From Gracilariopsis chorda (Eukaryota; Rhodophyta; Florideophyceae; Gracilariales; Gracilariaceae): a DNA stretch of 64,000 nt. Under the pieces are notes generated by a model, which made no database searches, was not told the origin of the DNA, and saw only the letters and a list, made by a program, of their open reading frames with translations. Shown here one piece after another: positions 1 to 22,939 of the stretch (positions are counted from its first letter, which is position 1; each line of letters begins with the position of its first letter). The DNA lies in the NCBI GenBank assembly GCA_003194525.1, contig NBIV01000340.1, positions 1 to 64,000 of the forward strand, written 5' to 3'. The translations under genes and the position numbers were made by a program.

Positions 1-454
1 CTCCTGCGGGATCGGCATTTCCACAATCCCCTGGGGGTTCCCGTGCGACACGGTGATTGGGTGGCAAAACCGCCTCCCTGCCAGTGCGCACGAGCGCTCT
101 GCACCATACGTTTCCGGCGATGCCGTGGTGTCCCCGGCTACTGACGGGTTGCCTGGGGCTAACTCCGGTACACCGGTATTTTTTGGTCAAAAATTCCCCC
201 TCTGGGGGGTTCCGGGCAGGTGCCGATGACACCCTTTTCAGGGAATTGCCGCTGAGCGCCAGTGCACCATCTCCGTGAGGAGGAGCAGCGTCCGGTACGA
301 CCGGTTTCGAGCGTGCGATGGCGCGCGTTATTCTCGAGTTCCTCGGTTCTTCGCCGCAGCGATGCGGGGGTTGGCGAAAATTTATTCCCCGTAGCGGGGG
401 CTTTTGATTCCGTCAAACGACGGGAGGCGTTTCCGGTGCTTGCGAGCCAGGGCT

Positions 455-3400
455 TTAAAGCTTCGACTGCAGCTTGGCCGCCTTTTTCCCCAAGAGGGGT
501 GTGGGTATTCCCCTGTGAGGCCGGCGTATCTGGGCGCCCCTTCTCCGCAGGGCGCGGGTCTGATCGACCTGATTGAACCGCTTCCGCGGGGACTTCCGCC
601 AACGGCGGCTTCGAGGCATCGGGCGATTGCCTTTCCGCTGCTGCGGTATGGAGTGAGGCTTCTCGTTTTCCCGTGACAAACGGTGTATTTGCCGCTTTTG
701 CGGGGCCTGCGCGTCTGGTTCCTGTTGCACAGCACTGCCAGGGAACGGGGGATTTAGTGTCGCGTGACATACTCCGTGCTCCACGGTCAGTGTTCCGTAT
801 GTTACGGTGTGTTTCCCGTTGCGACGGTGATATCGTCCCTCGAAAACGAGTGTTCTCCTCCCCTCCTTAGACGGAGCGGCGGGATAAGGGATAACATTCC
901 CCGCCTGGCGGGTATAAATGCGCGCCAGTGGGGCAGATGTGGTAGGGGCGGGCGCTGAGGGGCCCGAATTACCCGGCTGAGCCGGTGAGTCCGACAGAGT
1001 CGGTAGGTTCTGAGAGTCCCCGGCTGGGGGTGTGGTAGTACCGTAGTGTCTAGTACTCCCGGATTGTTCCGATGTAGCGGTGTCCGTAGAAACGGGGTTG
1101 CCTGGATCCAGGACTACCTCTGACGAGGGAGGAGGGGCGAGGACAACACGATCACGGGAAATCCGTTCGTGCGTGTCCCCCATCTCTACCACGACAGTGT
1201 CGGTGTTAACAGAGATCACTTTGAAGGGTCCATCCGCCACAGGCGAGAGTTTGTGACGCTTCTCCCGTTCCGGGTTGTAGTATTCCTTCCTGATGAAGAC
1301 GTAGTTATTTGCCCGAATCGGGGATGGTTTTCCTCGCACGCGAGCGTCAAAATCCCGCTTGTAAGCGGCTTGGGCCCGTGCCATTAGACTTCCGCGCCGC
1401 GGGGACCAGCTTGGAAAGCCATTGCTTCCATTGCTGCCGGTAGATACCCACAGATGGGAAATTGTCCAAGGTAGCTTGGGGTTCCAGCGCCACAGGCGGG
1501 GGTGTTCTAGATAGAACTAACTCGAATGGCGAAACTCCGGTAGTCCGGTGTACCTGCGTATTGTACGCGTAGGTTACCGCATCAGCGTAGAGATCCCAAT
1601 TCGTTGGGTGGTCAGCGACGTAGGAACGTAACGCCGCGAGTAACAACCGGTTAAACCGTTCAACTTGCCCATTACACTGGGGGTGGTAGGTAGTCGTGAA
1701 CAAGTTCTTGACATCCAGGATGCGACAAACATCCTGGAAGAACTTGCTCACGAACTGCTTCCCGTTGTCAGAGAGCACCTATACAGGGGGACCGTAGACA
1801 AAAATCCAGTGCGTCACCAGAGCCTGGGCCACCGTGAGAGCGGTTATCCTCCGAAGAGGGACAGTCCGTACCAGCTTAGAAAAGCGGTCGTTAATGACAA
1901 GTAGAAACTTGTTTCTACGTTTCGTGGTGAGTAATGGTCCGAGAATATCGATCGCAATAAACTCGAGCGGCGCCCTTGCGCGGAATAGTTTCATCTTCTT
2001 CGCATTTTTGCGGAGTTTGACGCGATTCTTCGCGCATTCGCTACAAAACCGCACAGTTGCGTAGCAGTCCACCGCCATTGCGGGCCAATAGAAATCCCAT
2101 CGCAGGGTTAGGTAGAGTTTCCTCCCACCTGGGTGACCTCCAATGGGGCGTAGTGTGATAGATGTAACACCTGCGATTGCAGGGAATGTGGTACCACAAT
2201 CTGTGGGCGGGCTTGGACCTTTCTTACGAGGTAGCCTTTGTCGTTTACCCCGAAAGGGAGATCTTCACCACCGTTGATACGGGCACGAATTCTCGTACAG
2301 AATGGGTCGCCGAATTGTTCTCGGATCATTTCTTCCGGTGATACCGGTACAAAGTTTCCCGGTAACGGGTTCTCAGATTTATCTCGCGATGCGAGTAGTT
2401 CGTCAAAATCAGCATCCTCGTCCCAGGTTTCTGGCCTAGCCTCGACGGCATGTTCCGGATCATCCGGGTCTATAGCCATGAAGCATGGGACTTCATCATC
2501 CTCCGTTGGGAGTGCTTCCCCACTTGTGGGTAACCGCGATAAAGCGTCGGCTTGAGTGTTCTGCGCGCCCTTTTTATAAATGACTTGAAAGTCATATTCC
2601 GCGAGGCGGAGTCTCCAGCGCATGAGGCGTCCCGACGGGTCGGAGATATTCATCAACCACCTCAATGAGGAATGATCCGTGTACACGGTGAAGTGAATTC
2701 CCATAAGGTAGGGGCGCAGAGTGGTCATCGCCCATACGACGGCGAGGCACTCTTTCTCCGATACGGAGTAGTTCCGCTCATGAACATTGAGCGAACGTGA
2801 CCAATAACCAATTGGATGTCGTTCCCCCTCGGGGGTGGTTTGAAAAAGAGCACACCCGACTTGGTAGTCGCTCGAGTCCGTATCTACGGAGTATGGCAAC
2901 CCAAGGTTTGGGAGATGTAGGATTGGTGCTGATGTGACAGCCTCCTTTAAGGAGTTGAAGGCTTCCGATTGCTCGGGCGTAAATATTCCCAGTTTTGGGG
3001 GTTCCCTTTCGCAACAACGCGTTCAGGGGCGCTGCAGTATCCGAAAAGTTCGGGATAAACCGTCGATAGACGTTGACCAGCCCCAGAAAGGAGCGCAGTT
3101 CCGTTTGAGTACGGGGTTCCTTTCGCCTCAACGAGGGATTTGACTCGAGCTTTCTCGATCGCTAACCGTCCAGGACGGATAATGTGACCCAGATACTTCA
3201 CAGTATCTGTGAAAAACTCGCATTTCCTGAACTTGAGGGTAATTCCCGCATCGCGGAGTACGGTGAGCACGTCTTGGACGTGAGTGAGATGGTCGTCCAA
3301 CGAGTTGGAGAAGATGATGATATCATCAAGGTAGACCAGACAACTCCGCCACTTAAAGCGGTTGAGTAGAATATCTACTGCACGCTGAAAGGTGGCGGGG

Positions 3401-5076
3401 GCGTTGGTTAACCCAAATGGCATCCGCTTGAAGCGGTACGTTCCTGCATGGCAGGTGAATGCGGTTTTGTCGCGATCCTCCTGTCTGACAGGTACTTGCC
3501 AATATCCCCAATTGGCATCAAGGGCCGTGAACACGGTGGCGTCTCCCAGGGAGTCAATGCACTCGTCCATACGAGGGATGGGGTACGTGTCCCTAACAGT
3601 CACGGCATTGAGCCGGCGGTAGTCGACACAGAACCTCCAGGTTCCGTCGGCCTTTAAAGCCAGTACAACTGGGGATGCCCAGGGTGATTGAGCGGGCTCA
3701 ATCACACCTGCGCGGAGCATCTTGTCCACCTGGGACTGCTCCTCTTCCCGAGCTTTCGGACCTGCCCTGTAAGGGGGTTGTGCAACCGGTCGCGCACCGG
3801 GGATTAAATCGATCCGGTGTTCCGTTGCATTAATCTCGCCAAGCGAGCCATCCCACATTGTGGTGAATTCCCGTAACATAGTACGGAGTTTGTCGCGGTG
3901 CGACTCTGGCACGTGGCTGAAGTCCAGCGCTTCAAGTGCTTTTTCCGGATCAATCCGGTCATTGCTCGATGGAGCATTGTCCTGTGGAACAGGTGTGGTT
4001 CGCAATTCCGAGTTACTCGGTATGTTCGGCGCTGAAGTAGCGGTTTCTTCCCCCTCCTTAGACTTGACGTCTTCGGACGGTGGGGCGAACTCCTCAGAAG
4101 AGGTGGTAACTCCGAGTACATCGGCGGCTGTCATCTTCGTTGGCAGCATTCCCATAGGATGGGGGGTTACACTCCCAATTACTTGGTGTTTGACCAGATA
4201 CTGGGGGTGTTTGCCAAGGTTGGCAACCAATATCCGGAAAGAAACATCCGGGGAAATGGAGACAATTCCATTAGCCAGCGCCAGCTGGGATTTCTCGTAC
4301 AACGAGGCGAGGGGTTGTATAACCCGAAGACTGTGTTGACGGGAATTTACCTGCACCCAGACTTGGGACTCAGCCGGTATAGAAACCGAGGCAGCGACGC
4401 GGAGCTTGGTGGACTCGCGGGACGCGGGCGGTGGTTCCTGCGCAGCAGGGAGCGGAACTTGTTTCCGAGAGGACCGCTTTAGCGGGCGGCGAACAATCGG
4501 AACCGACGATCCGTCGTCAAGTTCTACACGCCTGAGGCGGGGCCTGATTGCGTCGACAAATCTGTCGCAGTAATCACATCCCAGTATGACTGGTACTGCC
4601 AACGAACGGCAAACGATGAAGTCCAACTTCACCACGGAGGTACCAAGTCTCGCGACGAGGTCCACTGTGCCCACCGTTTGTAACGGGTTGTTATTCGCAT
4701 CCAAAATGTCGGGGACCGCGTCAGAGCGGATACGAGACCGCACAAGCGGGGGTAACAATGATTCCACAACGAAGTTGGGGCCTGCACCTGTATCCAGGAC
4801 GGTGAGAAACCTCACCATAAACTGGGGGTCAAGGCAAAGGTCGGCATAGACCTTATAATTGCGCTTGGCCAAGACCAAGACTCTACCGGGAATCCGGGGA
4901 TTTTTACTCCGTATCCACGGGCGACGCAACACACCGAGGTGCGCAGAGTCCGCGTCAGCGGTGTCTTTCCTCGAGAGGACTTTCACCGGGGAGCGAGGCG
5001 AGGACGCCTCGGGCACCAACAGCCTCGTTCTTGAGGACGCCTCTCCCAAAGGGGAGACTCCCTCAGTTAGTTTTCC
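455..5076 (-). pseudogene. pol: Pol polyprotein (PR-RT-RNaseH-IN) of gypsy copy 1, disrupted
   Basis: In the -1 frame relative to gag and open across the gag stop. Visible in order: aspartic protease (LDTGAGPNFV, then VILGCDYCDRF), reverse transcriptase (FCVDYRRLNAVT, YLDDIIIFSN), RNase H ([33 protein letters not shown]), integrase zinc region (CSECAKN), catalytic core (DILGP, SDNGKQF, HPQCNGQVERFN) and a C-terminal GPF-type module (DGPFKVISVN) with a long basic tail. The frame breaks near 3125, between about 3000 and 2900, near 2130 and near 1390, and an in-frame TAG lies at 1779-1781 just before the second catalytic Asp. This copy cannot make a full Pol. Region 1-454 continues the element 3' of the last clear coding stretch. 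Confidence 0.9.
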
Positions 5077-7241
5077 GCCTTCGACGGTGGGTTGGTTTCC
5101 TCGACAACGAGTGCTTCATCCCGTTGACAGGGGTTTCTATCCGCATAAGCGGGGGTTGCAACGGATGGTTGCGTGATCTCCCGAATCGGGGTGTATGAAG
5201 CTTGCCGCGCACGCGGGGTCTGTGGTAGGGCGTGGGAAAAGTCCGTTTTAGCACGGAGGTAGGAAGCCGTCGGGACGGAACGTTTCTCCTCTGGAGTGAG
5301 GGCCTCATAATTTGCCACCACCTTGGCCATATCCTTCAGTGAACAAATACACTGAGGAGAGGTATGGTCATGGGCATAGCACAGGTGGCAAATGAGAGCC
5401 AGCACCGCGACACGCGGATTATTATTCCGAGTATCGGAGAAGCGAACCGCAGGGCGGGTGTCAGTCCATCCAGGCCGTTGATAACGGGATTGACCGTTTG
5501 AAAACGGGAGTCGTTGGGGTTGAACCCGACTGTTACCACCGTATAGAACGGGATCTTCTGTTCCCGTATCATGGGTCATCTCCGTCGTTGACGGTAACTC
5601 ACTGGTGGGTATCGACACACCATCCCCCTGCGCTAAATGCACGGTATCAAATCCCTGTCCAGGGTTCCCATCCGCGGTGAGCGGGAGAGAGGAAGCTTCG
5701 CTTTCCAGCAACAACGCCTTGGCGGATTTAGACCGATGGTTCGGAGTTCTTGCACGAAGTGCATCCCCTTCCGCTCGAGCGTGTTGGACCAGCTCGAGGT
5801 AGGTGATGCTTCGCTTGTCCTCCCGATAACGGGTAACTAAACTCCGGATTGCCGGGTCAAGACCATCAATGAACATGGTACTGCGCTCCCCAGCGGGGTA
5901 TACGTTACCACATCTGTGGAAAGCCTTGTTAAGGCGCACCGAGTAATCGGTCTCGGTCTCTCCAGCACGCTGGCGTGTATCTCGCAAAGCGAGGATAGCC
6001 TGCTGAATAGCGGTGTTGGTGGCATAGGAGCGCAGAAGATACTGCACAGCCTCCGGCCAGCAAGTAACTTCTCCCTCGGAGGCGCGAGAAGATCCTCTGA
6101 CAGAGGTGTATTGGTCCTCCGCCACTCCCCGTAAGAAATACGGTAAAGCCAAATAGGCTTGTCCCTCATTCATACCGAGGATATCGGCCTCCGCTACAAA
6201 GCGGGATAGGAAATCCAGTACTAGGACTGGGTCCTCTCCAGTAAAATACTGGTTGCGGAGCGAGAGCTGCATTCGCTTAATGCATTCTCGCACCTTTCCC
6301 GTACCACGGGGCGTACGTCCAAGTGACGAATCTTCAAGCCGGTAGTACCGGTATGATAAAAGCTTCCGGTAATCCGGGTTTGTCGGTTTCAATTCCCGGA
6401 GACCGGGGTGTCTTCTCCCCTTCTGGCGGGTTCGGACCACACCTTCAGTGGCCGATGACCGCTTCGAGCGGGAGGAGTAGCCTCGCTTCTCGTCCTCCGA
6501 GTCGGAGTCCGAGGAGCTCGAGCTAACCGAATGGTTTCGGGATGAGTCCGACGATGTCGAAGAATCGGAGTTCGAATATTTTCGGTGTTGTTTCCGTTGG
6601 TGACGGCGTTTCTTCTTCCCAGCAAGCTGGTCGTTGTGCGATGCCTCGTTTACCGGATCACCCGGGGATGGTTTGTCCATGAGGACGAACTGCTCCAGCG
6701 TCTCCAGGCGGGCACCAATCCGATCAAATCCGGCTTCAACTCCTTCGATGAAGGCGGCGGGTTGTCCCAAACTCTCCAACACGGAGTTGACGTCAGACCG
6801 TAAAATACGGAGTTCCTCGGCGACCTCCTTTACGGGGGTTGCCGAGACCACCTCTTGGAGGGATTTTAGTTCCCCTACAAGGGTGTCATGGGCGGTCCAC
6901 AGAGCGCGGACCTGGGATTCCAGGGAAGTCCCCTGGGGGGTGTTATCGCCCGTTCCACGGGGGCTTGAAGCCGCGACAGCGGGAGCAGGCCGGGGTGCCT
7001 GGGGCACTGCGGCAACAGCCGGAGCCGATGCTGCATTACCCTGCGGGGGTGATAACGAGGGCAAAAGGAGGTTCCGGGGTTCCCGGTCGGGGGTATCGTT
7101 CCGCGATGAAGCGGCGCCAGCACGGCTGGAACTTGTCCGTATAGGGATACGGGGTACGAACCGAACTTTGGAAGTGTCCGCGTTGTCGCGGGAGCGACTA
7201 CGCGTAACCACTGGCTCCGCGTCGGAGGGATTTCTCGACAT
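5067..7241 (-). CDS. gag: Gag polyprotein of gypsy copy 1, intact
   Basis: 724 aa starting at an ATG at 7241. The N-terminus is Arg/Ser-rich and followed by a Pro/Ala-rich stretch. A helical region near residues 110-190 precedes a Ser/Asp/Arg block (about 225-275). The capsid-like retrotransposon gag domain is at about 300-490 (FLSRFVAEADILGM, WPEAVQYLLRSYA, DPAIRSLVTRYRED). A nucleocapsid-type zinc knuckle CX2CX4HX4C (CHLCYAHDHTSPQC) lies toward the C-terminus. It packages element RNA into virus-like particles. The stop TAA at 5067 directly follows a GGAAAAC heptamer, and pol lies in the -1 frame. No internal stops are seen, unlike pol of the same copy. Confidence 0.92.
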   Translation of the reverse strand: MSRNPSDAEPVVTRSRSRDNADTSKVRFVPRIPIRTSSSRAGAASSRNDTPDREPRNLLLPSLSPPQGNAASAPAVAAVPQAPRPAPAVAASSPRGTGDNTPQGTSLESQVRALWTAHDTLVGELKSLQEVVSATPVKEVAEELRILRSDVNSVLESLGQPAAFIEGVEAGFDRIGARLETLEQFVLMDKPSPGDPVNEASHNDQLAGKKKRRHQRKQHRKYSNSDSSTSSDSSRNHSVSSSSSDSDSEDEKRGYSSRSKRSSATEGVVRTRQKGRRHPGLRELKPTNPDYRKLLSYRYYRLEDSSLGRTPRGTGKVRECIKRMQLSLRNQYFTGEDPVLVLDFLSRFVAEADILGMNEGQAYLALPYFLRGVAEDQYTSVRGSSRASEGEVTCWPEAVQYLLRSYATNTAIQQAILALRDTRQRAGETETDYSVRLNKAFHRCGNVYPAGERSTMFIDGLDPAIRSLVTRYREDKRSITYLELVQHARAEGDALRARTPNHRSKSAKALLLESEASSLPLTADGNPGQGFDTVHLAQGDGVSIPTSELPSTTEMTHDTGTEDPVLYGGNSRVQPQRLPFSNGQSRYQRPGWTDTRPAVRFSDTRNNNPRVAVLALICHLCYAHDHTSPQCICSLKDMAKVVANYEALTPEEKRSVPTASYLRAKTDFSHALPQTPRARQASYTPIREITQPSVATPAYADRNPCQRDEALVVEETNPPSKAEN

Positions 7242-7322
7242 GAGAAAATACCGTTACGATGGGAAACGATCACGGAACTTCCGGTAAATAAAAACAAACC
7301 TCGTAAGAGGGAAAACAAAAAC

Positions 7323-7343
7323 CGATTCTAGGTCGGGAGACCA
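7323..7343 (-). other. Primer binding site, tRNA-Tyr-like
   Basis: Just inside the LTR the minus strand reads TGGTCTCCCGACC and continues for 21 nt. Its complement parses as a tRNA 3' end: C56, G57, A58 of the T loop, C61 opening the T stem, acceptor strand TCGGGAG, discriminator A73 and CCA. The implied C1:G72 pair with A73 is the identity signature of eukaryotic tRNA-Tyr. The same 21 nt are at 60598-60618. There are 8 nt between LTR and PBS, or 3 if the LTR ends CCACA. Confidence 0.65.
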
Positions 7344-7351
7344 CTTTGTGG

Positions 7352-8145
7352 TGCAATGCCCCAAAGGGGAAAAACACCGAAAGACGTCCGGGATCTTCCT
7401 CTCACGAGGTGAACCCAGTTGGGTAGAGCCCTCCCAGAGGTGTCACGGCGAAGCCGGTTTGTAAGACCAGGGACACCTGTCGCGACTCGCGCAGGGAGGT
7501 GAAGGCGAAGAATCGGTATCCGCGTGAGCGGGGTGTGATCCTCAGTAGAGGTATGTTTCCACGTAAGTGGGGTTGTGTGAGCGGATGCGCACACGAGGGC
7601 CGCGGATAGCGGGAGGTGCTACCCTAAAAAGGAGAAAAAGAAGGGCGAAGTGAGTCGCGAGAGCGACGGGGACGAACGGCGATGCCCGTAACAATATCCC
7701 TATACAGGGCGAAACACCAATGCAATTGGAACAATTATACTCCCAGTGATGGGTCTCCTTTAGATGTGCAAGGGGGGTGAACTTCCGTACACTACGGTGC
7801 TTCCCTCCAAGGAGGAGTTGAGAACACGCGGAGGCGGTAAAGCTCAGAGCCAATTCCCCAGGTTGGGGTCCCTTGTTGGGGAAGGTTTACTGGTGCGACG
7901 GCAGTGCGCCGTCGCACTAAGTACTAGCTTCCCAGAAATGGGTGTGAAAATAATAAATAAAATTAACTAAAATACTCCACATTCCGTGGCAACATCCACT
8001 ACTGTGGCCAACCGCCAATTGACCCAAAACCGTGTCCCACGTGTCTATACCCACCATTGTGGGGCGTAGTTCATATACACACTACACAACCGATAATATC
8101 GGGAAAGCGTTCAAGTACCCAGAATCCCTCCCTGAGGGCGTTGCA
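7352..8145 (-). repeat. 5' LTR of gypsy copy 1
   Basis: On the minus strand the LTR opens with TGCAACGCCC at 8145 and closes with GGGGCATTGCA at 7352, giving TG...CA ends with a short inverted terminal match (TGCAA/TTGCA). It is about 794 bp and aligns with 59793-60589 in the other copy. The outer boundary is fixed by comparison: outside 8145 the two copies have unrelated flanks. The inner boundary could be 5 bp further in (ending CCACA). The most diverged stretch is 7630-7710. A 10-bp stem with a 5-nt loop (GTGCGACGGC and its complement) is present in both copies. Confidence 0.85.
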
Positions 8146-11100
8146 CTTCACCAACCTGACGATGTATCCCTCACCGTTCTTCGAAAAAGGTAAGTCATAT
8201 CCTCCATTGAGGCGAGCGCCATTCTGCGTACAGAACGGGTCGCAATGTTGTTTGCGAATCAACTCTTACGGATTAAAAGGCGTAAAGAAGCCTTCGTTTG
8301 GGGGCTCCGAAGTCTCGAGAATATCGTCAAAAACTTCATCTGACCAATCCTTGACATTCCGTTCATCGTTCTAAACCACAAAACACGATATCTCTAGATA
8401 ATTAACCAGTTTTGCTTCTACAGTGGTTCTTAGGTAGGGTAACGCGTCCGCTTCTGTTTAAGGGTTCCATTTTTATGAAGTACTTCGAAATCGAATTCCG
8501 AGAGTCGGAGGCGCCAACGCATGATGTGTCCCGATGGTTCGGGACTCTCCACGAGCCAATGAAGGCAGCAGTGATCCGTATGTACCTTAAATTGGGTTCA
8601 CATAGGATATTGTCGAACAGTGGCAAGCGCACGGACAACGCCAAGACAGTCTGTTTCCGAAACCGAGTAGTTACGCTCATGCACGTTCAATGTCTGAGAC
8701 CAATATCCGATTGTGAATCGTTCACCGTCTTCAGTAAATTGAAATAGCGCACAACCAACCTGGTTATCAATGGCATCAGTATCCATTTCATGGAGTAACC
8801 CGAGACTTTGCAACTCCAATATTGGGGGAGACGTCACGGCGTTGATGAGAGCCGAGAAGGCAGTGGCTTCCGCGTTGCCAAAAGGTTCCAGTTTAACTGT
8901 TTGTCCCTTCTTCAGGAGAGCATTCATTGGTGTCGCAAGCTCCGCGAAACTCGGTAAAAACGAACAATATACGTTACAAAATCTAAGAATTGATCAAAGT
9001 TCCGTTTGCGTAGTCGGATATTTCGCGTTCTTCAGCGACTTACTTCTTATCTGGCCTATCGAGAGCTGTCTGAGGCGGAGTATATGTCCAAGATACTTCA
9101 CCGAAACGTTACAGAACTCGCACTTCTTGAGATTTCGCGTAAACCCTGCATGTCGCAGCACACGCATAACACTGCTCACATGGGTTATGTGATCATATAA
9201 GTTGTTTGAGAACACGACTTTATCGTGGAGATACACGAAGCAGATTTTCCATTTGAACCAGGCCAATAGAATATCTATGGCACTTTGCAACGTAGCAGGT
9301 GCATTGGTTAATCCGAAAGGCATTCGTTTAAAACGATATAGTCCTTGGTGACACACAAAAGCAGTTTTGTCGCTGTCCTCCTTGCGGATAGGTACTTTTC
9401 AATAACCTCAATTGGCTTCAAGAGCGGTGAACACTGTAGCACTCCGAAGGTCGATGTACTTGTCCATCCAAGGAATCTGGTAAACGTCTTTGACGGAAAC
9501 TGTGTTGAGACGTCAGTAATTGATACAAAATATTCACAGTCCATCCACTTTTGGAACGAGTACTACTGGCGGAGCCCAAGGTGATTGAGCGGGTTCAATG
9601 ACACCAGCGCGTGACATCTTCTCAACTTGAGAACTTCCTCTTTGTGTGCTTTCAGTCCATTCCGATATGAATTTTGTGCAATTGGCTGAGTTTTTGGTAG
9701 CAAATGAATACGGTGCTCCGTTATTCCTATCGTTCCAAGGGAACCCTCTCACATGGGGGTAAACTCTCAAAGCATATCCCGAAGTTTCTCACGGTGATAG
9801 TCAGGGACATGATCCAAATCGAGCTTCTTGAGTTCCACTATAGGGTTCGCACGCTCTGAACAAGGTGGTAGCGAACGAGATTCCGTAGATCGATTTACTC
9901 TGACGTTGGGCTCCGAAATACGCTCAGCATTTATGGATTTGTTTTCCCCTTTTTTAGAGACTTCCACTCCGAGGAAGGCAGCAACTGGAATGTTTGTTGG
10001 CAGGAATACTCGCGTTTTTGGTAGACCTGAACCCGGGATTTGGTTTTGGACTAACACCTGGGTGGTTTTGCCAACTTTGGACACCGAAACCTTAAAGGGA
10101 ACATCAGAGTTGCTAAACATCACTCCGTTCGCAAGTGCAAGTTGACATTGGTCGTATAACTAATAATGAGGTTGAACCAAATGGTATCCCCTATGGTTGG
10201 AAACAACTTTGAACCAGACTTGCAACTCCATTGTCACGGCAACTGATTGAGCGAAACAAAGCTTCGTATAAATGGGACCCGTGTACTGTACTTCCTGAGC
10301 AGCCGGTATCGGTACACGCTTTTACGTAGCACGCTTGAGTGCTTTCCGGACAATGGGTACGGTAGAACCGTTTGCGATTCCCATGTTTCTTGCACAGGGT
10401 CGAATTTCTTCGACAAAGCAATCACAAAAGTCACAACCAAGAATCACTGGTGCCGCGAGTTTATCGCAAACAACAAATTCCAGTTCAATCATACAGATAC
10501 CCAGTCTCATGACGAGAGGAACGTATTCCACGGTCTTTAGAGAATTTCTGTTCGCGTCAGCGATATCCAGACCTGATCTACAGCGATGTAATGTGAGCCC
10601 GAAGAGCCGGGGTACCAGTTCAGAGTCGATAGGGTTGGGTGCAGCCCCTGTATCTAAAACAGATATCTGGCGAACCATAAATTGGTTGGGCGGGCCAAGA
10701 TCGGCATAAATTTTGTAATCTCTCCTGGCCGTGACCACAGCTCTATCCGGAATACGAAAATTAGGAGAACTTATCCACGGAAGACGTAAAACCGAAATGG
10801 TTTCAGGTCCGGAGCAGCCATATTTCTGGTAGAGATCCTAACGGCTGAGTAGGGACGCTGTAACGCCTCCGGCATCAACTTCGGCTCAGAAGACGCTCCT
10901 CCCGTGGAATAGACTTCCTATTCTAGCTTTTCGAGATGGAACTCACCGACCTCGGTGCCACCATCTCATGGTGGGAACCAGAATGAATCCCATTCGTGGG
11001 TACGACCGCGTCCACTGGTTGATCAGGGGTTGGTTTAACAACGGGAATATTCGTTCGTGCCAGTGCGCCGTTAGCGAGTAATGCTTTAACCTCTTGGTAT

Positions 11101-11690
11101 GATGTACTCGTCGTTCGGGCCCGATCAGCTGGGGTCAGCGTTTCGTGATTCATGATATCCTTGGGCATCTCCCAGAATATCAAGTCACATTTCGGGACGA
11201 TATGACCATGATAGTAACATCTATGACAGATAGCCGGTAGTACTTCATCTTATTGACTATGGTTATCCTTTTGAAAGTGTGGCTGCGGTATGAACCATCG
11301 TGGGTAGGTAGCACGGGATCCGTCTGAACCATGACCCAGTGGAGTCGCCTGTATTCGCACTGCCGCAGCGTTGAAAGTGAGGTCTTCCTCTGAGGTCGAC
11401 GCCGATGTTGAAAGCACGTCCGTAGTCCCAAACGAGTGAAGGTGACTGCCAGCGTACTGGGAGTTGTGCATATCCGCATTTGCGAGTGTCTGCCTTGGGG
11501 CAAAGACATTGATTGTGACGATTCCTCCAATAAGAGAGCTCTCTGTGACTGGCGTTTTGATTGACTCCGTGCATGGTGAGTTTCTCCCTCAGCTTGGGCA
11601 TAGTGGACCAGTTCAAGGTATGAATTCTTCCATTTATCCTCACTGTGTCGTACAATGCGAGACGTGGACGTGGGACGCTGCAAGGTAAAT
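8146..11690 (-). pseudogene. Degenerate Ty3/gypsy relic, host of the copy 1 insertion
   Basis: Minus-strand fragments are colinear with the neighbouring gypsy element but highly decayed. They include gag (11683-11180, LELVHYAQAEG, matching LELVQHARAEG of copy 1), protease (10738-10322, SVLDTGAAPNP, VILGCDFCDCF), reverse transcriptase (9770-8994, GVIEPAQSPWAPP, RFKRMPFGLTNAPAT, FVYLHDKVVFS in place of YLDD) and RNase H (8927-8598, [11 protein letters not shown]). Stops and frameshifts separate every piece. It is truncated on the 5' side inside gag near 11690 and cut on the 3' side by the copy 1 LTR at 8145/8146, within the post-RNase H segment (GEGYIVRLVK). The missing half should lie beyond the left window edge. 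Confidence 0.9.
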
Positions 11691-12421
11691 TGGAACCCTA
11701 CTAGGGAAAGCCCTCAAAGGGAAGACACCACTGTAACAGCGCCCGCACCCGTGGCTCGCCTGCTCAAATCAGGACTTCGCAGTAGCGATAACACGCAAGG
11801 CGTTGCTCCTCGCACTAGTGGCAAAGCGCGCCCGTTGATGGCCGACCCTTACTTAGGTTACCTCGACGAAGACGACATCCTCAATCGGGTGTACACCACG
11901 ATTTGGTGCTTGCAATCCCTGATCGATGGGAAGAACTAGGCTTTTGTGGAACTCTTGAAGAGGTAGAACGTTGAGATGTGCGTCGGTGTTCTCGGAATGC
12001 TAGATAAGGGTGCTAGATCGCAAGTTTGTTAGGCAATCACTCAAAAAAACTACGAAAACGCTAGATTCTGCTAGTTCGTGGTGGTTGGCAAGCAAAAAAA
12101 AAATTTTTCGGAAATCACTCTTTCATATTTTCTATTGTCATCCGTCCCTAGTACCGCACTTCGCTAGTTTCAAGTTTAGAGCAAGTTCTTTGCTCACTAA
12201 ACGCTAGTTAGAGGGCTCGAAATGGCGCTGGCCGCGTAGCGGCCAGCGGCCCCACCCCCATGCAACCCAAATTAACTTACATATTTCCATCTCGTGGATT
12301 TCAAACTTCAAATTGTCAAAGTTTGGAGCCCAACTGTTCTCTCAGCCTCACTGGGTGGCACCCACACTCTTGAACACCAAACATAAAACCTCCCTTACCA
12401 TCCTTACCATCCTTCTTCTCC
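11655..12421. other. Spacer with weak ORF and one strong hairpin
   Basis: An 94-codon plus-strand frame (11655-11939, containing DPYLGYLDEDDILNRVYTT) has no relative I recognise. It could be a fragment of an unrelated element abutting the relic gag, or chance. 11940-12220 is AT-rich with repeated CTAG motifs. 12226-12248 is a perfect 10-bp stem with loop GTA (CGCTGGCCGC/GCGGCCAGCG), and the stretch ahead of the next gene is CT-rich. Nothing else is apparent. Confidence 0.4.
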
Positions 12422-13180
12422 TTATCCTCTCATTCCACGCCTCCTCTTCAACCGACTCTCACCTTCTATTCCTTCGTCGTCCTTCTCCTCCAACCTCTTC
12501 CTTACAGCCCCTCGACCGGGAGTAACAGGAGTGCCTTCCCCGACAACAGCTCTCCCTTCCGCATCACACACCTTCTTCTGCATTTCCTCGATTAGATGCA
12601 CAGCCCTACCAACCAGTAAAAGTTGCTTCTCCAACACCAAAACCCGTCTACGCATCTCCTCGTTCTCCTTCCACAGTCTCCTCAGCTCCTCACCCACACA
12701 CGCCACAACCCCATCTACATGCATTTCCGCCCACACCCCAGCCTCCCTTGCCCTCCTACGCAGCTCAGCCACAGCACCCATAGGCACCCCTTCCTCTGAA
12801 GAACTCAGCACCATCCCCCCCATCTCCACCACAACCTCCTCGATACACTCATCCAAACGCTCCTTAAGCCCTCCGCCCACGCTCCTCACCAGTTTCTTCA
12901 CATCGCGGTAAAACCGACTCATTCGCCCCGCCCCACCTCCTCCTCCTCCCCGTCCTCCTCGACTTCCCTCGCCCTCACTTCCCTCCCCCCCATCCCCTCC
13001 CATCATCGTCCCAACCCCAAGCTCCCCGAACCCAACAACGTTCCTTCCCTTGCCCTCTTCACCATCACCCTTCCCTTCCTCCTCCTTCTTCGTCCTTGGA
13101 GGCGTCTCGGGGACCTCCCTCTTCTCCGCTTTATCCAACAACGCCAGTAGCTCCTCATCATTCACGTCTTCGCTAGACAT
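12422..13180 (-). CDS. Hypothetical protein with coiled coil
   Basis: About 252 aa from the ATG at 13180 (MSSEDVNDEELLALLDK). In-frame codons upstream lack another ATG. The N-terminal third is acidic/Lys-rich and followed by a Gly/Ser/Arg low-complexity stretch. After this come a helical block (RFYRDVKKLVRSVGGGLKERLDE) described here only in outline, and a coiled coil (EELRRLWKENEEMRRRVLVL). The C-terminus is basic (SRLKRRRGMRG) and resembles a nuclear localisation signal. The helical architecture suggests a nuclear scaffold or kinetochore-type protein, but no family is recognised. The gene lies 240 bp downstream of, and on the same strand as, the next membrane-protein gene. Confidence 0.6.
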   Translation of the reverse strand: MSSEDVNDEELLALLDKAEKREVPETPPRTKKEEEGKGDGEEGKGRNVVGFGELGVGTMMGGDGGEGSEGEGSRGGRGGGGGGAGRMSRFYRDVKKLVRSVGGGLKERLDECIEEVVVEMGGMVLSSSEEGVPMGAVAELRRRAREAGVWAEMHVDGVVACVGEELRRLWKENEEMRRRVLVLEKQLLLVGRAVHLIEEMQKKVCDAEGRAVVGEGTPVTPGRGAVRKRLEEKDDEGIEGESRLKRRRGMRG

Positions 13181-13422
13181 GGCTACTACACGCCCCACCA
13201 CAACGGCGCTCCCGTTCCTAACCCAACCACCAAGCGAGCACTCCCCAGGTACTTATCCAACCGCATTTTTTCACTCGCCCGTTTTCGCGCCATTTCCCAC
13301 CGAGTCGTGTCCCACCAATAATCTGAAACGAAAAATTTAGAACGACATTAGTTTAACACTTCCTTCAGTTTACAACTCTATCACACTAACTTAGGTATGT
13401 ACAGGTAGAACTACGAACGTGT

Positions 13423-14619
13423 CTAAAGAAATGGTTCAAAACGAGAACCAACAGCCCTACAGTGCTCTCCTAGATTCGCGACATACCTTCGAAAATGGTA
13501 CTCCAAGTCCATATCCACAGCCATACCCAAAAGAAGCAGCACGAAAAAGATAGTATTCTCCACTACAGGCGCGAGTCCCCTTACCTTGTGCAAAGAAGTA
13601 TCGCTCAGGAACGTGAAAATCAAGTAGGTAAACACAACAGGGAACACCCTTCCGATATAGAGCCTCATAGTAGCCACACCATCTCTAAACCCAAGCACCT
13701 TATTCAAACCACCGTATACGGTCCTGCACACATCCAAAATCAGCCCAACACTACCTCTCTGCACATATGGGAGCTCTCTTTCATTGTTAATGCTGTCCCT
13801 AGTCACAAAAAACATCGTTAGCCGTTCAACCACATACGACATACCCCCAAACATGAAACCACCAGTGAAAAATGCAAGAGCACCAGTCCTAAGTTCCATT
13901 CCAATCGAAATTGGCGCTTCCAAGAAGTGATAGCCAACAAAAATACAAACATTCAACGGCAAAAGACCTGCCATCGTGAATCCAAGTAGTCTGTTTCGAA
14001 TCACAGAAATCCGTGCCATTCGCTGGCTGTCCCGCAAAGGTACGTATGCCAATGAACCAAAATGCCTTCTATGCAATGCAAACACCATATCGAAGATAAA
14101 CAAATGCAAAACAGTCTCCAGAATTACCACAATCAACATCTTCGGAGACATTCGAACATCCCCTACCACATAATGCATCAAAAGCGGTTTCAATACCCCA
14201 TAAAGAGCACCAATGGCTAATGAAAACAGAAACGCATATGCGCACCAAGCCCTGAAACTGAACATATGACGAGGGCTTCTAGAAAGGTTTGGCGCATTCT
14301 CCAGATATTGTATCAAATGAGTACTCCCGTACAGCACGTGCAAAAAATTTGAATTCGTTAAGATATAATTATGTGTCGGTACTTCGTCTAGAACCTCGTA
14401 TATCTCCGTCACATCCTCCAAAACACCCGCGGTGAGCAACCTTGACGCCCCTCGCACAACACCCTTCTCCGTATCCGTACTATACCGAATTTCAAGTACT
14501 TCGTCAAACCGAATCACCGTCTCATTCGGAAAGATATTCAGATACGCACGAGTCCTCCGGTCACTCTCGGAAGACTGCAAATAGTAGTCGTGGTGCTTGT
14601 GGATGTTCTCGAATGCCAT
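13423..14619 (-). CDS. Multi-pass membrane protein of unknown function
   Basis: About 398 aa from the first ATG at 14619 (MAFENIHKHHDYYLQ). The N-terminal ~130 residues are soluble and contain LNIFPNETVIRFDEVLEI. Six hydrophobic segments follow: AYAFLFSLAIGALYGVL, MLIVVILETVLHLFIF, LLGFTMAGLLPLNVCIFVGY, ALAFFTGGFMFGGMSYVV, VFPVVFTYLIFTFL and NTIFFVLLLLGMAVDM. The tail is short and cytosol-like. No conserved catalytic motif or transporter signature is recognised. The frame is uninterrupted and codon use resembles the other host genes, so it looks functional. A red-algal lineage-specific family is the likeliest explanation. Confidence 0.7.
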   Translation of the reverse strand: MAFENIHKHHDYYLQSSESDRRTRAYLNIFPNETVIRFDEVLEIRYSTDTEKGVVRGASRLLTAGVLEDVTEIYEVLDEVPTHNYILTNSNFLHVLYGSTHLIQYLENAPNLSRSPRHMFSFRAWCAYAFLFSLAIGALYGVLKPLLMHYVVGDVRMSPKMLIVVILETVLHLFIFDMVFALHRRHFGSLAYVPLRDSQRMARISVIRNRLLGFTMAGLLPLNVCIFVGYHFLEAPISIGMELRTGALAFFTGGFMFGGMSYVVERLTMFFVTRDSINNERELPYVQRGSVGLILDVCRTVYGGLNKVLGFRDGVATMRLYIGRVFPVVFTYLIFTFLSDTSLHKVRGLAPVVENTIFFVLLLLGMAVDMDLEYHFRRYVANLGEHCRAVGSRFEPFL

Positions 14620-15180
14620 GTTTGAATGTCGATCACGATTGTACCTCCTCCCCACTTGAACCAACCTCTTCCTCGCTTATATGCACAACGTACCATCCTC
14701 CGACTTGCTAAACCCTCCCAATTCCAAACACGCGAAGCAGTGTTTTGAACCAGTACACGATAATGCATTCAGTGTCTACACTCCTTTTCATAAATCAAGC
14801 ACTGCTTGCACCCCACACCGCATTCTGATATGAAAGGAACCACTACCTTCACTATGGACACATTTGGGAACCGCAGTCTTTCCCTGTAGCAATGTCGTGC
14901 TTCACATCCCTACAATCTCCTTTAATTCTCATAAATAATTACATATTCACTTTCATTTACATTCATATCTCATATGATTTGTCCACTATACCTTTCTTTA
15001 TTCTCCCCACCGATATACCCGCCCACCAAGTTTCTTCTTATACCTGTACCTCTCTTAATAAAATATAACAGAGCTTCATCTTTCCAGACATCATCCCTTC
15101 ACTATTAAACATCATCCAACACAAATGGCGTCATCTTTTCCACTCCCATCACCCTGTCCCTCTATTTACATCTATTCAAC
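14620..15180. other. Intergenic region between divergent genes
   Basis: About 560 bp between a minus-strand and a plus-strand gene. AT-rich in 14920-15130 with several TATAAA/ATATAA-like strings (for example near 15057), so it may hold both promoters. No coding signal is seen. Confidence 0.4.
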
Positions 15181-15501
15181 ATGTCAGAAAGTCGCTTCCC
15201 TCCTCATCCTTATGTCGCAACAACACATCGGGAGGAGGTACCCGTCGTGATGAGAGAACTTTTGCGCCTTGTAGCTCTTCATACACGAATTCATCATAAT
15301 ACTCTCACCAATGAGCACTCCATGGAAGCACTACTCAAGTACGGAAAATCCCTCACATCCCTCAAGGCCTCCTTCTCTGAGTTTCACGTTCGAAACGGTT
15401 TCTTCTACGAAATCTCAAGAAAATTGAAGGAAGCTGGAGCTAAGGACCCAGCCCCCCTCCATACAAGGCTCGTAGACGTTATCCAGTTCCATATTGTATG
15501 A
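15181..15501 (+). CDS. Small hypothetical protein (106 aa)
   Basis: Starts with ATG at 15181 (MSESRFPPHPYVATTHREEV) and ends with TGA. It is mostly helical, with a leucine-rich first helix (VMRELLRLVALHTRIH), a second (SMEALLKYGKSLTSLKASF) and a C-terminal VDVIQFHIV. No membrane segment or signal peptide is seen. The size and all-helical pattern would suit a small complex subunit, but no family is recognised. An upstream AT-rich region and clean ends favour a real gene. It converges with the following minus-strand gene, about 130 bp apart. Confidence 0.55.
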   Translation: MSESRFPPHPYVATTHREEVPVVMRELLRLVALHTRIHHNTLTNEHSMEALLKYGKSLTSLKASFSEFHVRNGFFYEISRKLKEAGAKDPAPLHTRLVDVIQFHIV

Positions 15502-15634
15502 TAGTACTCAATAGAAGACCCATCATGAGTATGATACTTGCTCACATCCATTTCAAAAGAAACGAATAAACACATTGCACTAATTTAAGTCAAGTTTTAC
15601 AAACGTTTATCACCATATATACTACTTATCATCA

Positions 15635-16719
15635 TTAATCACTTTCATCGTCCTCTCCTATCAGACCCTGCAATCCTTTAGGGACCATCTCTCCCTCCTC
15701 ATCATCCTGTTCATAATCCCCATCAGTATTCATCTCCACGGGCTTCCATACGTAATCCTCCTCCTCATCGTCTGACTGATTGTTCCCCTCCACATCGTCC
15801 ATATCAACGTCTCCATCATCAGAACTACCACCTCCCGCCTCCATCTCTTCATCTTCCTCTTCCTCCTCAAATCGAGGTGTAAATCCGACCTGTCTATGTA
15901 CAGCATCCGGGAGATTGTATCCGTCAGGCACAAGATACATATGGTAGCGGAAGCAATACCCTTTCACAATCGCATCATCATACCCAGCTCCAGCGTGGAA
16001 TACATCCCCTCTTCCAATAAACACAGAAAACGGCGGAATCCTCACCTTTCGCACCACCATAGAACCAGAAAGCCGTTTCACGTTCTCCCGAGTCATAGTC
16101 AGGTTATGAGACCTCTCGCATACCCAAATCATGAACGCATCTGGCCCAGATGCCATTACGAAATAGCCCGGGTTTGCTTCCTTCTTCCTATCCGCCTCCG
16201 ACAGATTCCTAAAATCAGTGTGCAACACTCGCCTAGGGCAATCCTCTCCAGTACACAATACACGACCACCAGTTTCAGGGGCATACATCGCTCCAACTTC
16301 TGAGTTTCGCTCAGTCAACCAAAGTGCTGCCGCAATCTGACCAATTCTTGCATCCAACAACGCCCTCTTCCGCACAAGCACTGCAGCGTTTTTGAGCGCC
16401 TCAATTCTATCCACAATCCCCCTCTTCGTTGTTATAAAACGTCCCACTGCCTTTAGGAGGTTCAAAGGTTCAACGGATGGCGATGCAGAGATCGGCAGAG
16501 TCCTGTTCCAGGCCCAGATCCACCCGCTACGTCCATACCCCGCAATTGTGCTTTGCCAACCTTCACCTTTTCATCGCTATTACCGATTCGCACAAACAAA
16601 TTGACAGACGCCCCACCATGGAGCTCTCTGTTTGCATCGCGTTGAGCGGGCGGAGGCGTGGAAAGGTTGGAAGCTCTGGAGCTGCCCATGCTTTTCGCTT
16701 TTCCTCGCGTAGTCGGCAT
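15635..16719 (-). CDS. Fe(II)/2-oxoglutarate oxygenase-like protein, frame interrupted
   Basis: The main frame (16465-15635, 276 codons) has no ATG. Its N-terminal part is probably the overlapping upstream frame beginning at ATG 16719 (MPTTRGKAKSMGSSRASN), which ends just past 16462. A short intron or a single frameshift must join them. The core carries the dioxygenase facial triad: His and Asp in VLHTDF (H82, D84 of the 276-codon frame), a distal His in GRGDVFHAGAGY (H157) and the 2OG-binding-type Arg in FRYHMYL (R173). After residue ~195 the tail is very acidic (Glu/Asp runs). The fold assignment rests on the triad and the frGDvfHaGa pattern; the substrate is unknown. Confidence 0.55.
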
Positions 16720-17024
16720 TTCTATGTCAGGCCTTCGCAGCGAAGCGGATTTCCTGGGACAATGCTTCTTCGTCTTCGTAGAACTCTTATTCCGGCCGAG
16801 AACCACGCTGCAATCTTGAAGCGTTCGCGTGATCAAGTTGTCGTGGCACCCAGTCGCGTAAGATGCTCTCGTGATCACGTCTGCTCGGTTCAGGCGACGT
16901 GAGCATCTATACTTTTGAAATACATGGTATTGAAGACGTTTCCTGACAACCATTAAGTTCATTTAGGCGGCGCTGCAATGCACCTGTAATGATTTTGCAT
17001 TGGTATTCGAAGTTTGTTTTTGGG

Positions 17025-17110
17025 GGTGGAGGTCCGTGGACCGGAGTGTCGTGGCGCTTCATCAGGCGCCTGATGAAGCGCCACGACACTCCGGTCCACG
17101 GACCTCCACC
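17025..17110. repeat. 86-bp perfect palindrome, no spacer
   Basis: Arms 17025-17067 and 17068-17110 are exact reverse complements (43 bp each) with the centre in GGCGCC. The bases beyond both ends do not match, so the palindrome is bounded. It lies between the oxygenase-like gene and the end of the Plavaka-like transposase. Confidence 0.97.
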
Positions 17111-17150
17111 ACGTGGCGGCCAGCAGTTCCGAAAATCAAAAAATTAGTTT

Positions 17151-17238
17151 AAAATTAGTGTCTGGAATGAACGGACATCTGCGGTACGACCTAGTAGGTC
17201 ATGGGCGGAAGATGCATGGTTCATTTTACACTAATTTT
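17151..17238. repeat. Short inverted repeat pair (AAAATTAGTG)
   Basis: AAAATTAGTG at 17151-17160 is inverted at 17229-17238 (CACTAATTTT), with looser similarity on the inner side (GGAATGAA against AAAATGAA). The right arm supplies the last codons and the stop of the adjacent transposase frame. This could be a miniature element or the transposon's own end, with the C-terminal part lost. Confidence 0.4.
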
Positions 17239-19376
17239 TTGAGGGTACCGAGGTGCGAAGAGTGGTAGGGTCCGAGGACGGTGGTGGCTGTGAGTTTGAA
17301 GGATCTGATCTGTCGTTCGAGTGATTTGAGAGAGTCTTCGGTCCATTCGGAAGTGGAGTTGTATCGCATGGCGTAGAGAACGAGATCTGTGTACTTGGTG
17401 AAGACGGAAGTGATTGGGGAGGAGTCGATTTCGTTGCAGCATCTGTCGAAGAATGCTCCGATGAAGGGGAATACCATGTCGAGTGCGCGGTAATCTTTTG
17501 CTTCGAGCATTCCACGGAGTCCTTCTGTGGTGAAGAAGCCGTTAAGAGCTTGAGCGTTGTCGGAGGTGGAGAAGTCTATGTGGAGTCCAGTTGCAGGGGA
17601 ATCTTTTTCGATGGCCGCAAGAATGGAGTTGGAGTGTTTGAGGATGGAGGTGCGGATGGATTGGAAGGATCTCTTGGATTTGCTGGGACCGACAATGGAG
17701 AAGAGAGAATCGGATCGGAGACGTTCGATTGCGGTGGCTTTGATGAGTTTAGAGACGCCGAGGTGGAAGTTATGCAGTGGCTCGAAGGCGAAGATGTTGT
17801 AAGAAGAGAGAAGCGGAGTGATGTTGAAGATGGGGTATGATTCGAAGAGAGAAGTGTACTTTGCGAGGGAGAGAGAATGAAGTGCTGTTGCTGCCTCTTC
17901 TTTTTTGGTGCGTGCCACTTTTGGTTTCCGGGCGAGTTGCGCTTCCTCGGATTCGCGGAGAAGGCAGGTGTGCTGTCTGCGATTGGTTCGAGTTTGGAGT
18001 TGTGTGCGGAAGGGGATGGGATCTGTATTGAGGAAGAGGTGTTCCCGAGGGACGGTGCATCTCGGGCAAGGGTGCTGCGGCCGTGTTCCGTGGGAGATGG
18101 CGAGGATGTCCTTTGCTTCGGGGATGTCTGCGCAATAGCTGGCGAGGATGGGGTGGCAGTGGCGGAGGACACCGTGAGCGTCACGGAAGGAGAATCCTGG
18201 GAGCGCAGAGGTGAGGAGTGGGTTGAGGATGGTAGAGATGGCGCGCTGAATGAGGTTCATTTTGGTCTCGCGTGGGATGTTGGAGGATGATTTCGGGACG
18301 TAGTCGCCGCCGTCGTCGAAGGCGGTAAACGGGGAGAAGGAGGTTGGAAGGTATCCGAGGAGTGTGAGATTTTCGGATATACACTTTCGGCGGAGGGCAT
18401 CGGAGAAGTTGAGAAACGTGACGTGGAGGGGGTAGGAATTGACGGAGGAGCTTTTCAGGGAGGTTGCGGACTTGTCCGAGTAGAGCTGGACGAGGCCGAT
18501 GAATGATTCGATACCGGTTTCCTGGGGGGTGTGCCAGACGATGTCATCGACGGGGGACTGCATAATTTCCTGTTTGATGGCTGGGACGACTTTCTTTCCG
18601 AGGGCTGCAGCCATGGGATGTGCGAAAGCCGGGTGACCAGAAGACGAAGAAGATGAGGAAGATTGAGATACCGGCTGGAAGAAGGTGTTGTTGAGGTGTG
18701 CGAGTGCGAGTTGTTGCTTGAGGACGTCGATGGCACGTTTCTGGAAGAGGGTTGCGGAGAAGGTGTTGCGCTTGTCTGTGATGGTGGAAGGGATGAAGCC
18801 GTTGGAGCTGATGCGTTGCTTGAAGAGGTCCTCTTGCAGTGCGAGGCACTGCCTGGCGGAGGAGATGGAGGTCTGGAAGGAGGACTTGGAGAAGTCTGGA
18901 TGGTTGAGGATGGAGATGAGCTCGTCTGCTTTGCGGGTGCTGACGGAGGATGCGATGGAGGAGATGTAGAGGACGAGTTGTTCGAGATGAGGGTTGTCGG
19001 CGAGAGGGGAAGGGGAACGAGAAGGGGGCGGGAGAAGGGGGTTTGAGGAGGAGACGGAGCCGATGGCGTGACTTGCGATATGGTAAGCGTCTTGGGTTTG
19101 AAGAGAGAGGGAAGCCTGTTGAAGTTCATATGGATCATCATCGGCGAGGGGGACGTTGTCGGAAGGACGGTGAGAGGGAAGGGGAGGAGAATTGATGGAG
19201 AGGTTGGGAACGGATTTTCGCTTCTTGGTCCTGGGAGGGAACTGAACTGGAGCGGTGGCTGTGGAGGAGGAACGCTTGTTGGCGGTGAGGCGATGGGGGC
19301 ACCTGCGTTGGTGACTCTGAAGAGAGTATGTGGTGCGGCCGTGGAAGGAGCAGCGAGGGTAGCAACAGGGGAACAT
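17226..19376 (-). CDS. Plavaka-like (CACTA-type) transposase, C-terminus truncated
   Basis: The frame is open from 19583. The likeliest start is the ATG at 19376, immediately before a zinc-finger-like motif (CCYPRCSF...LQSHQRRC); this gives about 716 aa. A Ser/Pro-rich linker follows. The conserved core shows WHTPQETGIESFIGLVQLYSD, NSYPLHVTFLNFSDALRRK, TLLGYLPTSF and CADIPEAKDILAISHG with a CPRCTVP cysteine pair, the layout of fungal and algal Plavaka/KDZ-like transposases. The last residues (KKLV) are encoded by an AT-rich inverted repeat, so the normal C-terminal half appears lost. The 2.3-kb open frame suggests recent activity. Nearby palindromic DNA may mark a rearranged element end. Confidence 0.7.
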   Translation of the reverse strand: MFPCCYPRCSFHGRTTYSLQSHQRRCPHRLTANKRSSSTATAPVQFPPRTKKRKSVPNLSINSPPLPSHRPSDNVPLADDDPYELQQASLSLQTQDAYHIASHAIGSVSSSNPLLPPPSRSPSPLADNPHLEQLVLYISSIASSVSTRKADELISILNHPDFSKSSFQTSISSARQCLALQEDLFKQRISSNGFIPSTITDKRNTFSATLFQKRAIDVLKQQLALAHLNNTFFQPVSQSSSSSSSSGHPAFAHPMAAALGKKVVPAIKQEIMQSPVDDIVWHTPQETGIESFIGLVQLYSDKSATSLKSSSVNSYPLHVTFLNFSDALRRKCISENLTLLGYLPTSFSPFTAFDDGGDYVPKSSSNIPRETKMNLIQRAISTILNPLLTSALPGFSFRDAHGVLRHCHPILASYCADIPEAKDILAISHGTRPQHPCPRCTVPREHLFLNTDPIPFRTQLQTRTNRRQHTCLLRESEEAQLARKPKVARTKKEEAATALHSLSLAKYTSLFESYPIFNITPLLSSYNIFAFEPLHNFHLGVSKLIKATAIERLRSDSLFSIVGPSKSKRSFQSIRTSILKHSNSILAAIEKDSPATGLHIDFSTSDNAQALNGFFTTEGLRGMLEAKDYRALDMVFPFIGAFFDRCCNEIDSSPITSVFTKYTDLVLYAMRYNSTSEWTEDSLKSLERQIRSFKLTATTVLGPYHSSHLGTLKKLV

Positions 19377-22868: not shown

Positions 22869-22939
22869 TCTTTATACCCTTCTTCGCCTGCGGGTCACTC
22901 GCTTTCGTTGCGATGTTTCCTGGTCTAAGAACGGGGATG

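Follow-up and report, generated by a model that had tools for sequence, protein, structure and literature searches.

The window analysed here, the first 64,000 nucleotides (nt) of contig NBIV01000340.1 of the red alga Gracilariopsis chorda (assembly GCA_003194525.1), opens within a Ty3/gypsy retrotransposon that is tiled with short hairpins of a recurring form. The element takes up positions 1-8150 on the minus strand, with its 5' end at 8150 and its 3' end beyond window position 1; a sequence-only reading, which first drew attention to the hairpins, had placed a gypsy element at 1-7241, and is corrected in that the genes lie on the minus strand and the element runs to 8150 and past the window start. 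The 5' long terminal repeat (LTR; 7347-8150, minus strand, TG...CA) is itself hairpin-tiled and matches the 3' LTR of another copy, L072. It is followed on the same strand by a 724-amino-acid (aa) open reading frame (ORF), here called gag (5067-7241), with a CX2CX4HX4C zinc knuckle at residues 618-631, by an ORF with reverse transcriptase (RT; 2947-5049; RVT_1, 7.1e-37), by an RNase H-like domain (2108-2899; RT_RNaseH, 7.9e-37) and, downstream of RNase H, by a putative integrase core piece (1347-1778; rve, E 0.0016, under the curated cut-off) whose frame is broken in the window copy, as are the frames that hold further integrase pieces. RVT_1 followed by RT_RNaseH on the minus strand is the Ty3/gypsy gene order. 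The gag ORF gave no Pfam family above cut-off and no match among PDB sequences at E up to 1, and is putatively named from its position ahead of pol and because it matches what other gypsy families have there. In L072 the 3' LTR lies ~780 nt past the point corresponding to the window start, which gives an element of ~9.7 kb in total; the LTR ends are TG..CA and a G-rich polypurine tract precedes the 3' LTR, this repeat and tract being taken from L072 only. A second copy, 98.1% identical and ended by the window edge, lies at 59787-64000 on the plus strand. Across the 91-Mb genome (1081 contigs) gag gave 40 scored matches, all 99-100% identical, which is a lower bound on copy number as these were 40 of 1005 first-pass candidates. 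Viral contigs held no relative for six peptide patterns taken from the RT ORF.

Stems were counted where 4 bp or more pair perfectly around a loop of 3-5 nt (the definition used throughout unless stated otherwise). Positions 1-7241 contain 281 of them, a mean of one every 26 nt, whereas dinucleotide shuffles give 84.2 +/- 8.6 (z 23); stems of at least 5 bp number 116 against 21.4. The several-fold raised density that had been proposed from the letters is therefore confirmed, and is stronger than claimed. All eight hairpins cited by coordinate were found in the sequence, among them CCGGC-TGA-GCCGG at 973-985, CCGAC-AGA-GTCGG at 991-1003 and six in a single stretch of gag (5180-5355), as were six quoted motifs, at 41, 196, 292, 354, 387 and 410. 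The excess persists when the protein sequence is held constant: after synonymous-codon shuffling (n=200 per ORF) gag retains 30.6 stems on average and at most 45 of its actual 87, the RT ORF 27.9 and at most 42 of its 84, and the RNase H ORF 10.8 of its 29, with an ORF at 455-1384 less extreme (31 against 13.9, and at 5 bp or longer just 7 against 3.5, z 2.2). The LTR, as had also been claimed, is likewise filled, with 30 stems against 8.4 expected and 22 hairpins with CC..GG ends against 1.6, and the second copy contains 179 against 48.8. Two host-type genes on the minus strand served as controls under the same synonymous shuffles, a GH31 glycosidase (48736-52074; 44 stems against 37.1, 1.2x, z 1.1) and a piece of an SNF2-related helicase (43459-44511; 18 against 11.2, 1.6x, z 2.0), together with a Plavaka transposase gene (15 against 15.7, but 8 against 3.9 for stems of at least 5 bp, z 2.6). 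In 1-kb bins the excess is 2.6-4.3x across 1-8000 and 3.1-4.1x across 60001-64000, while of the 52 bins between them 34 are under 1.5x and 18 at 1.5-2.8x; of 200 such bins from twenty 10-kb stretches in other parts of the genome, 190 round to 1.5x or less and 10 to 2x or more. Local folding energy is likewise below that of shuffles (mean z -1.78 for the sense strand, range -5.5 to +1.0, and -1.46 for the antisense, in 20 windows of 200 nt), the GH31 control giving +0.38 (9 windows). Neither outcome that the sequence-only reading had named as refuting it, a stem density no higher than in codon- and dinucleotide-preserving shuffles or one matched by neighbouring host genes, was obtained, although some other stretches of the window also have a modest excess.

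Chance, or base and codon composition, would be the simplest source of such an excess, and the element does have a GC content (0.56) above most of the window. The stem counts nonetheless far exceed those of dinucleotide, codon and synonymous shuffles, mirror-image GG..CC hairpins occur at chance and fourfold-degenerate sites are conserved within stems (both below), and we regard this explanation as ruled out for practical purposes.

The hairpins have a characteristic construction. Their excess is concentrated at loops of 1-5 nt and at total spans of 11-14 nt, and stems that have less than three G-C pairs show little of it or none. It is highest at loops of 3-4 nt, in keeping with the loop size that the sequence-only reading had called usual, although in two of its own examples (5242-5257 and 5336-5355) the loops measure 6 and 8 nt. 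Among stem ends CC is the commonest (enriched 14x), followed by CT (5.3x) and CG (3.5x), and the polarity of this clamp is pronounced: hairpins of span 13 with five pairs number 45 with CC..GG ends against 1.0 expected, and 0 with the mirror ends GG..CC against 1.1. Over 8151 nt there are 178 CC..GG sites against 15.9 expected. Pairing inside the clamp is strict, such that with spans of 11-13 and both next pairs Watson-Crick there are 155 hairpins against 11.9, whereas those with one Watson-Crick and one other pair are near chance (G-U 15 against 10.3, A-C 18 against 11.2, other mismatches 59 against 45.5). The same holds at equal free energy: between -7 and -2 kcal/mol Watson-Crick hairpins are about four- to seven-fold enriched (249 against 46 on the sense strand), and G-U-containing stems are not, whether on the sense (35 against 36.5) or the antisense strand (48 against 44). 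RNA thermodynamics alone was rejected as an explanation on these grounds, since neither G-U stems of equal energy nor GG..CC hairpins exceed chance; sequence matters to the excess in addition to stability. The same two observations weaken the earlier suggestions of compaction or of resistance to nucleases or silencing. A typical unit may be written as an A-rich linker, CC, two or three variable pairs, a loop of 3-4 nt, the complement, GG and a further A-rich linker. Clamp polarity points to a reader that recognises the stem at its base.

Spacing and strand were assessed on 229 non-overlapping stable hairpins across the same 8151 nt. Neighbouring centres lie 18-23 nt apart in 66 of 228 cases, against 39.3 +/- 5.5 under random non-overlapping placement (equalled in 0 of 5000 simulations), and distances of 13-17 nt are depleted (21 against 40.8). 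About three in ten neighbours are thus at the preferred distance, which is a preference rather than a strict period. The autocorrelation of folding energy in the window copy peaks at a lag of 21-22 (0.08) and again near 40 (0.05), with six shuffles staying within 0.05, and the mean of 19 older copies peaks near lags 19 and 38. The flanks are asymmetric: an A directly follows a hairpin 84 times and a T directly precedes one 27 times (p 5e-8), a contrast that recurs at offsets 2 and 3 (p 0.01 and 0.008), and the LTR hairpins also tend to precede A (0.50 of 24). Mean stem pairing probability, computed for every second hairpin (111), is 0.48 on the sense strand and 0.37 on the antisense, against 0.33 for chance hairpins from shuffled sequence (n=150). 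Taken together, the flank asymmetry and the better folding of the coding strand make genomic RNA the likelier molecule to be read.

Three alternatives bear on these properties. The hairpins might serve to evade silencing, by occurring both in the sense RNA and in antisense or small guide RNAs and so hindering annealing and RNA interference; this would require stems that are purely Watson-Crick on either strand, as observed, is in line with the tiling of both LTR and genes, and would make a spacing of ~20 nt match small-RNA length (20-21 nt being the preferred distance seen). It is unlikely, given that GG..CC hairpins of the same stability show no enrichment and that flanks and folding are asymmetric toward the coding strand. 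Alternatively, template hairpins might pace reverse transcription by making RT pause, with RNase H then cutting at even intervals. The RT-RNase H footprint is about 18-20 bp, which the ~20-nt spacing would reflect, the bias is to the sense RNA, and an enzyme moving 3' to 5' would meet the GG first; by itself, however, pacing leaves both the exclusion of G-U pairs and the fixed CC/GG clamp unexplained, and we consider it rather unlikely. Lastly, palindromes two helical turns apart might be bound as double- or single-stranded DNA. Such a signal would account for the exclusion of G-T pairs, for a spacing near 21 bp and for a clamp, CC..GG, that is its own reverse complement, but it fits poorly with arms that vary from site to site and yet must match each other, with the coding-strand asymmetry and with an excess that grows with RNA hairpin stability (although the clamp may account for that growth); we hold it to be improbable.

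Evidence of selection comes from the RT region, in which the window copy was compared with 18 copies of an older subfamily (L029-L046, ~82% identical). These are 18 of 40 listed places, three further copies (L018, L047 and L048) being left out as more diverged, and a difference was considered typical if present in at least 70% of the 18. Typical differences affect 35 of 424 stem positions, 32 of 159 in loops, 32 of 169 in flanks and 108 of 687 elsewhere, and at third codon positions the corresponding rates are 12.6%, 46%, 40% and 25%. Loops do not differ from the rest across all positions (p 0.25) and change more at third positions (p 0.01). At fourfold-degenerate sites 12 of 97 have changed in stems, 11 of 24 in loops and 41 of 140 elsewhere (stem versus rest, 52 of 164, p 3.5e-4), and for stems the contrast over all third positions is seen in G/C (p 0.02) and in A/T (p 0.001) when each is taken alone. 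For 33 of 45 stable hairpins in this region a counterpart is present in 30% or more of the copies, and 29 of the 33 are without a typical change in either arm. Rare variants among the 18 older copies, which we take to be mostly mutations that followed insertion, are spread evenly (per cell, 0.038 in stems, 0.034 in loops, 0.038 elsewhere and 0.028 in flanks). Fewer fixed changes in stems combined with this even spread suggest that pairing, rather than the loop, is protected while the element is active and that protection ends after insertion. As judged from this alignment of the RT region, synonymous sites within stems are under purifying selection in the lineage while it is active.

These data also speak to a mutational origin, in which fold-back copying during reverse transcription perfects imperfect palindromes. 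Quasipalindrome correction of this kind, in which imperfect palindromes become perfect by templated copying, would produce all-or-none stems, which is what the CC..GG hairpins resemble (with one mismatch of any type, 92 against 67, beside the large excess of perfect ones), and the weaker excess in older copies would be in accord with it. Singletons in young copies, however, create a hairpin in 6 of 75 cases, against a simulated chance rate of 7.5%; fourfold stem sites are conserved rather than co-changed, loops and stem-adjacent flanks change freely at third codon positions, and the clamp is polar. Templated mutation is therefore disfavoured, by the chance-rate gain of hairpins and the conservation of stems, and quite unlikely in our estimation. 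The small-inversion process that the sequence-only reading had offered is weakened by the same observations, the stems being conserved and not rewritten.

The distribution of the hairpins was followed among copies and families within this one genome. The stem excess is 2.5-3.3x in the 18 older copies of the subfamily and 1.6-2.3x in the three more diverged ones. In a still older class it is 1.1-2.7x in 21 copies (20 of 40 listed places and the window's own), the matching region of the window copy having 3.6x. Two sister families represented by 2-kb pieces (L069 and L070; RT 64% and 60% identical at the aa level) have 60 stems against 22.5 and 53 against 22.1, and in both CC..GG ends are overrepresented. 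Neither enriched ends nor enriched spans were found in seven distant gypsy pieces (L010, L011, L012, L015, L016, L022 and L071), which are ~32-47% identical in RT or consist of gag alone. Among the families sampled, the hairpin code is confined to one clade. Within that clade hairpin positions coincide between families of 62-69% nt identity more often than under circular shifts (12 against 3.9, 9 against 2.3 and 6 against 0.8), and we read this as a rule of density and spacing that is passed down while some of the sites turn over.

The window's own member of the older class, a degraded relative with pieces of RT, RNase H and gag and a weaker stem excess, adjoins the young element at 8151-11674 on the minus strand; its RT has 46-62% aa identity, and its identity to 39 other listed members of the class is 74-85%. 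Stem density is slightly elevated in the remainder of the window (1.49x for 7800-24000 and 1.21x for 24000-44000), part of which consists of such old relatives. At 20001-24000, 26001-28000, 31001-32000 and 59001-60000 the excess reaches ~1.8-2.8x with no match to the RT, RNase H or gag of the hairpin clade; further portions of old copies, or a different type of element, may lie there. Just outside the 3' LTR of L072 (L072:1700-2001) stems again exceed shuffles (13 against 3.7), but CC..GG hairpins number only 2 where 0.4 would be expected; an older element may be nested there. Neighbouring transposons are represented by the Plavaka transposase gene (17226-19583, minus strand), a DDE_1 transposase gene with a Tc5 DNA-binding domain that is split across two frames (29270-30609, minus strand) and a second DDE_1 transposase gene (53820-55106, plus strand). 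Transposases of these types would suggest a basidiomycete host.

We suggest, as quite possible though short of probable, that these Ty3/gypsy elements form a clade with a repeated RNA structure code, most likely read by their own Gag. CC/GG-clamped hairpins with a preferred spacing of ~20 nt, running through LTR, gag and pol, would be presented on the genomic RNA and read most likely by the element's own Gag, possibly through its zinc knuckle, and would serve as scattered sites for binding and packaging, labelling the RNA as the element's own. A packaging code was among the ideas of the sequence-only reading, whose observation is confirmed and whose interpretation is partly supported, and it is the one that best fits the clamp, the ~20-nt spacing, the coding-strand asymmetry and the conserved synonymous stem sites. 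The 753-aa gag-bearing open frames of two hairpin-free families (L011 and L012) are without the CX2CX4HX4C pattern, and the presence of a knuckle with hairpins and its absence there may be taken as a lead only. An arrangement of one hairpin for each Gag subunit in a T=9 shell was considered and dropped. More tentatively still, we envisage an element-length code of self-identity, spaced at ~20 nt and read by the element's own Gag, that influences which codons are used along its whole length and passes on as a rule of density and spacing while individual hairpins are gained and lost between families.

Several observations weigh against this proposal of a Gag-read RNA code. Pair-level covariation is weak, with a compensated change in most older copies at 2 of 217 pairs; such scarcity is expected if intermediates are not tolerated, and covariation is thus not the main evidence. 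Double changes that keep pairing make up 46% over cells in the near subfamily, against 10-26% in slid controls, but 36% against 27-37% in the old class, which is no signal. When columns are tested for covariation between families, the window family as reference gives no more than the slid controls do, and the sisters as reference give only a mild rise on small numbers. Paired substitutions, which had been put forward as a check, lend little support. The hairpins that coincide between families are partly of identical sequence, some having different arms, and because of the identical ones the coincidence is partly due to shared descent. Variants shared by several of nine young copies are rarer in stems (11 of 1445) than elsewhere (43 of 2570), a contrast that reaches only p 0.19 against the singleton ratio; a first count of 6 in stems and 49 elsewhere became 11 and 43 under symmetric classification, and the contrast was abandoned as proof. 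A simpler count against the window copy alone was dropped, being biased by variants private to that copy. The sister families L069 and L070 have no clear ~20-nt peak in their 2 kb each, and the frequency of A before versus T after a hairpin is not significantly different (55 against 39, p 0.12). The correlation of knuckle and hairpins rests on a simple pattern and a few families, with the gag of L069 and L070 not among them. Finally, the exclusion of G-U pairs is not predicted by simple folding of one RNA strand and also fits DNA or both RNA strands; perhaps the helix has to be strictly regular in geometry, or perhaps both strands or DNA matter.

If the proposal of an RNA code read by Gag is true, a code overlaps both LTR and genes, with a unit that can be tested by clamp, loop, spacing and strand, and the elements would offer a natural system for how Gag separates its own RNA from that of the host, a long-standing question in retroelements and retroviruses. 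Codon choice would then seem to be governed by a structural rule. The contrast between the two subfamilies, in which stems are conserved, loops are free and decay follows insertion, makes selection testable from sequence alone.

Among the open-access matches listed, judged by title and the opening of the abstract, there was no description of such hairpin tiling. Genome-scale ordered RNA structure is a bulk property of folding energy; the element resembles it in folding beyond shuffles along its length and differs in having a sharply defined unit with a clamp and a spacing. Maize Sirevirus LTRs are described, in the relevant part of one account, as containing clusters of palindromes with predicted structure (PMC10760457, citing Bousios et al. 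2016), and so provide another LTR retrotransposon rich in palindromes; by that description, however, they belong to copia elements with palindromes concentrated in the LTR, whereas gag and pol of the present element are tiled equally. Yeast Ty3, of the same superfamily, also has folded regions in its RNA genome, with a folded core of ~20% of the sequence and a dimerization palindrome (PMC11381356), and its Gag packages RNA via a nucleocapsid (NC) domain with one CCHC finger (PMC4974528), a motif that the gag described here likewise contains. What is set out for Ty3 in the pertinent portion of the former source is a folded core with specific cis elements, and no periodic clamped mini-hairpins (PMC11381356). 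The closest working model is that of dispersed packaging signals, as outlined in part for MS2, enterovirus-E and the pregenome of HBV, in which many stem-loops have a common recognition feature and their spacing affects assembly (PMC6281560, PMC7793301). Many short stem-loops with a common feature and otherwise variable sequence are found here too, and of the hallmarks of such signals the element has a common motif, the CC..GG clamp, and, in the RT region, conservation of sites. It differs in that its common feature is the base of the stem, where that of MS2, in these accounts, consists of loop and bulge bases, and in that strictly Watson-Crick stems occur at hundreds of sites across LTR and genes with a preferred spacing, in a retrotransposon whose coat protein is a putative binding partner.

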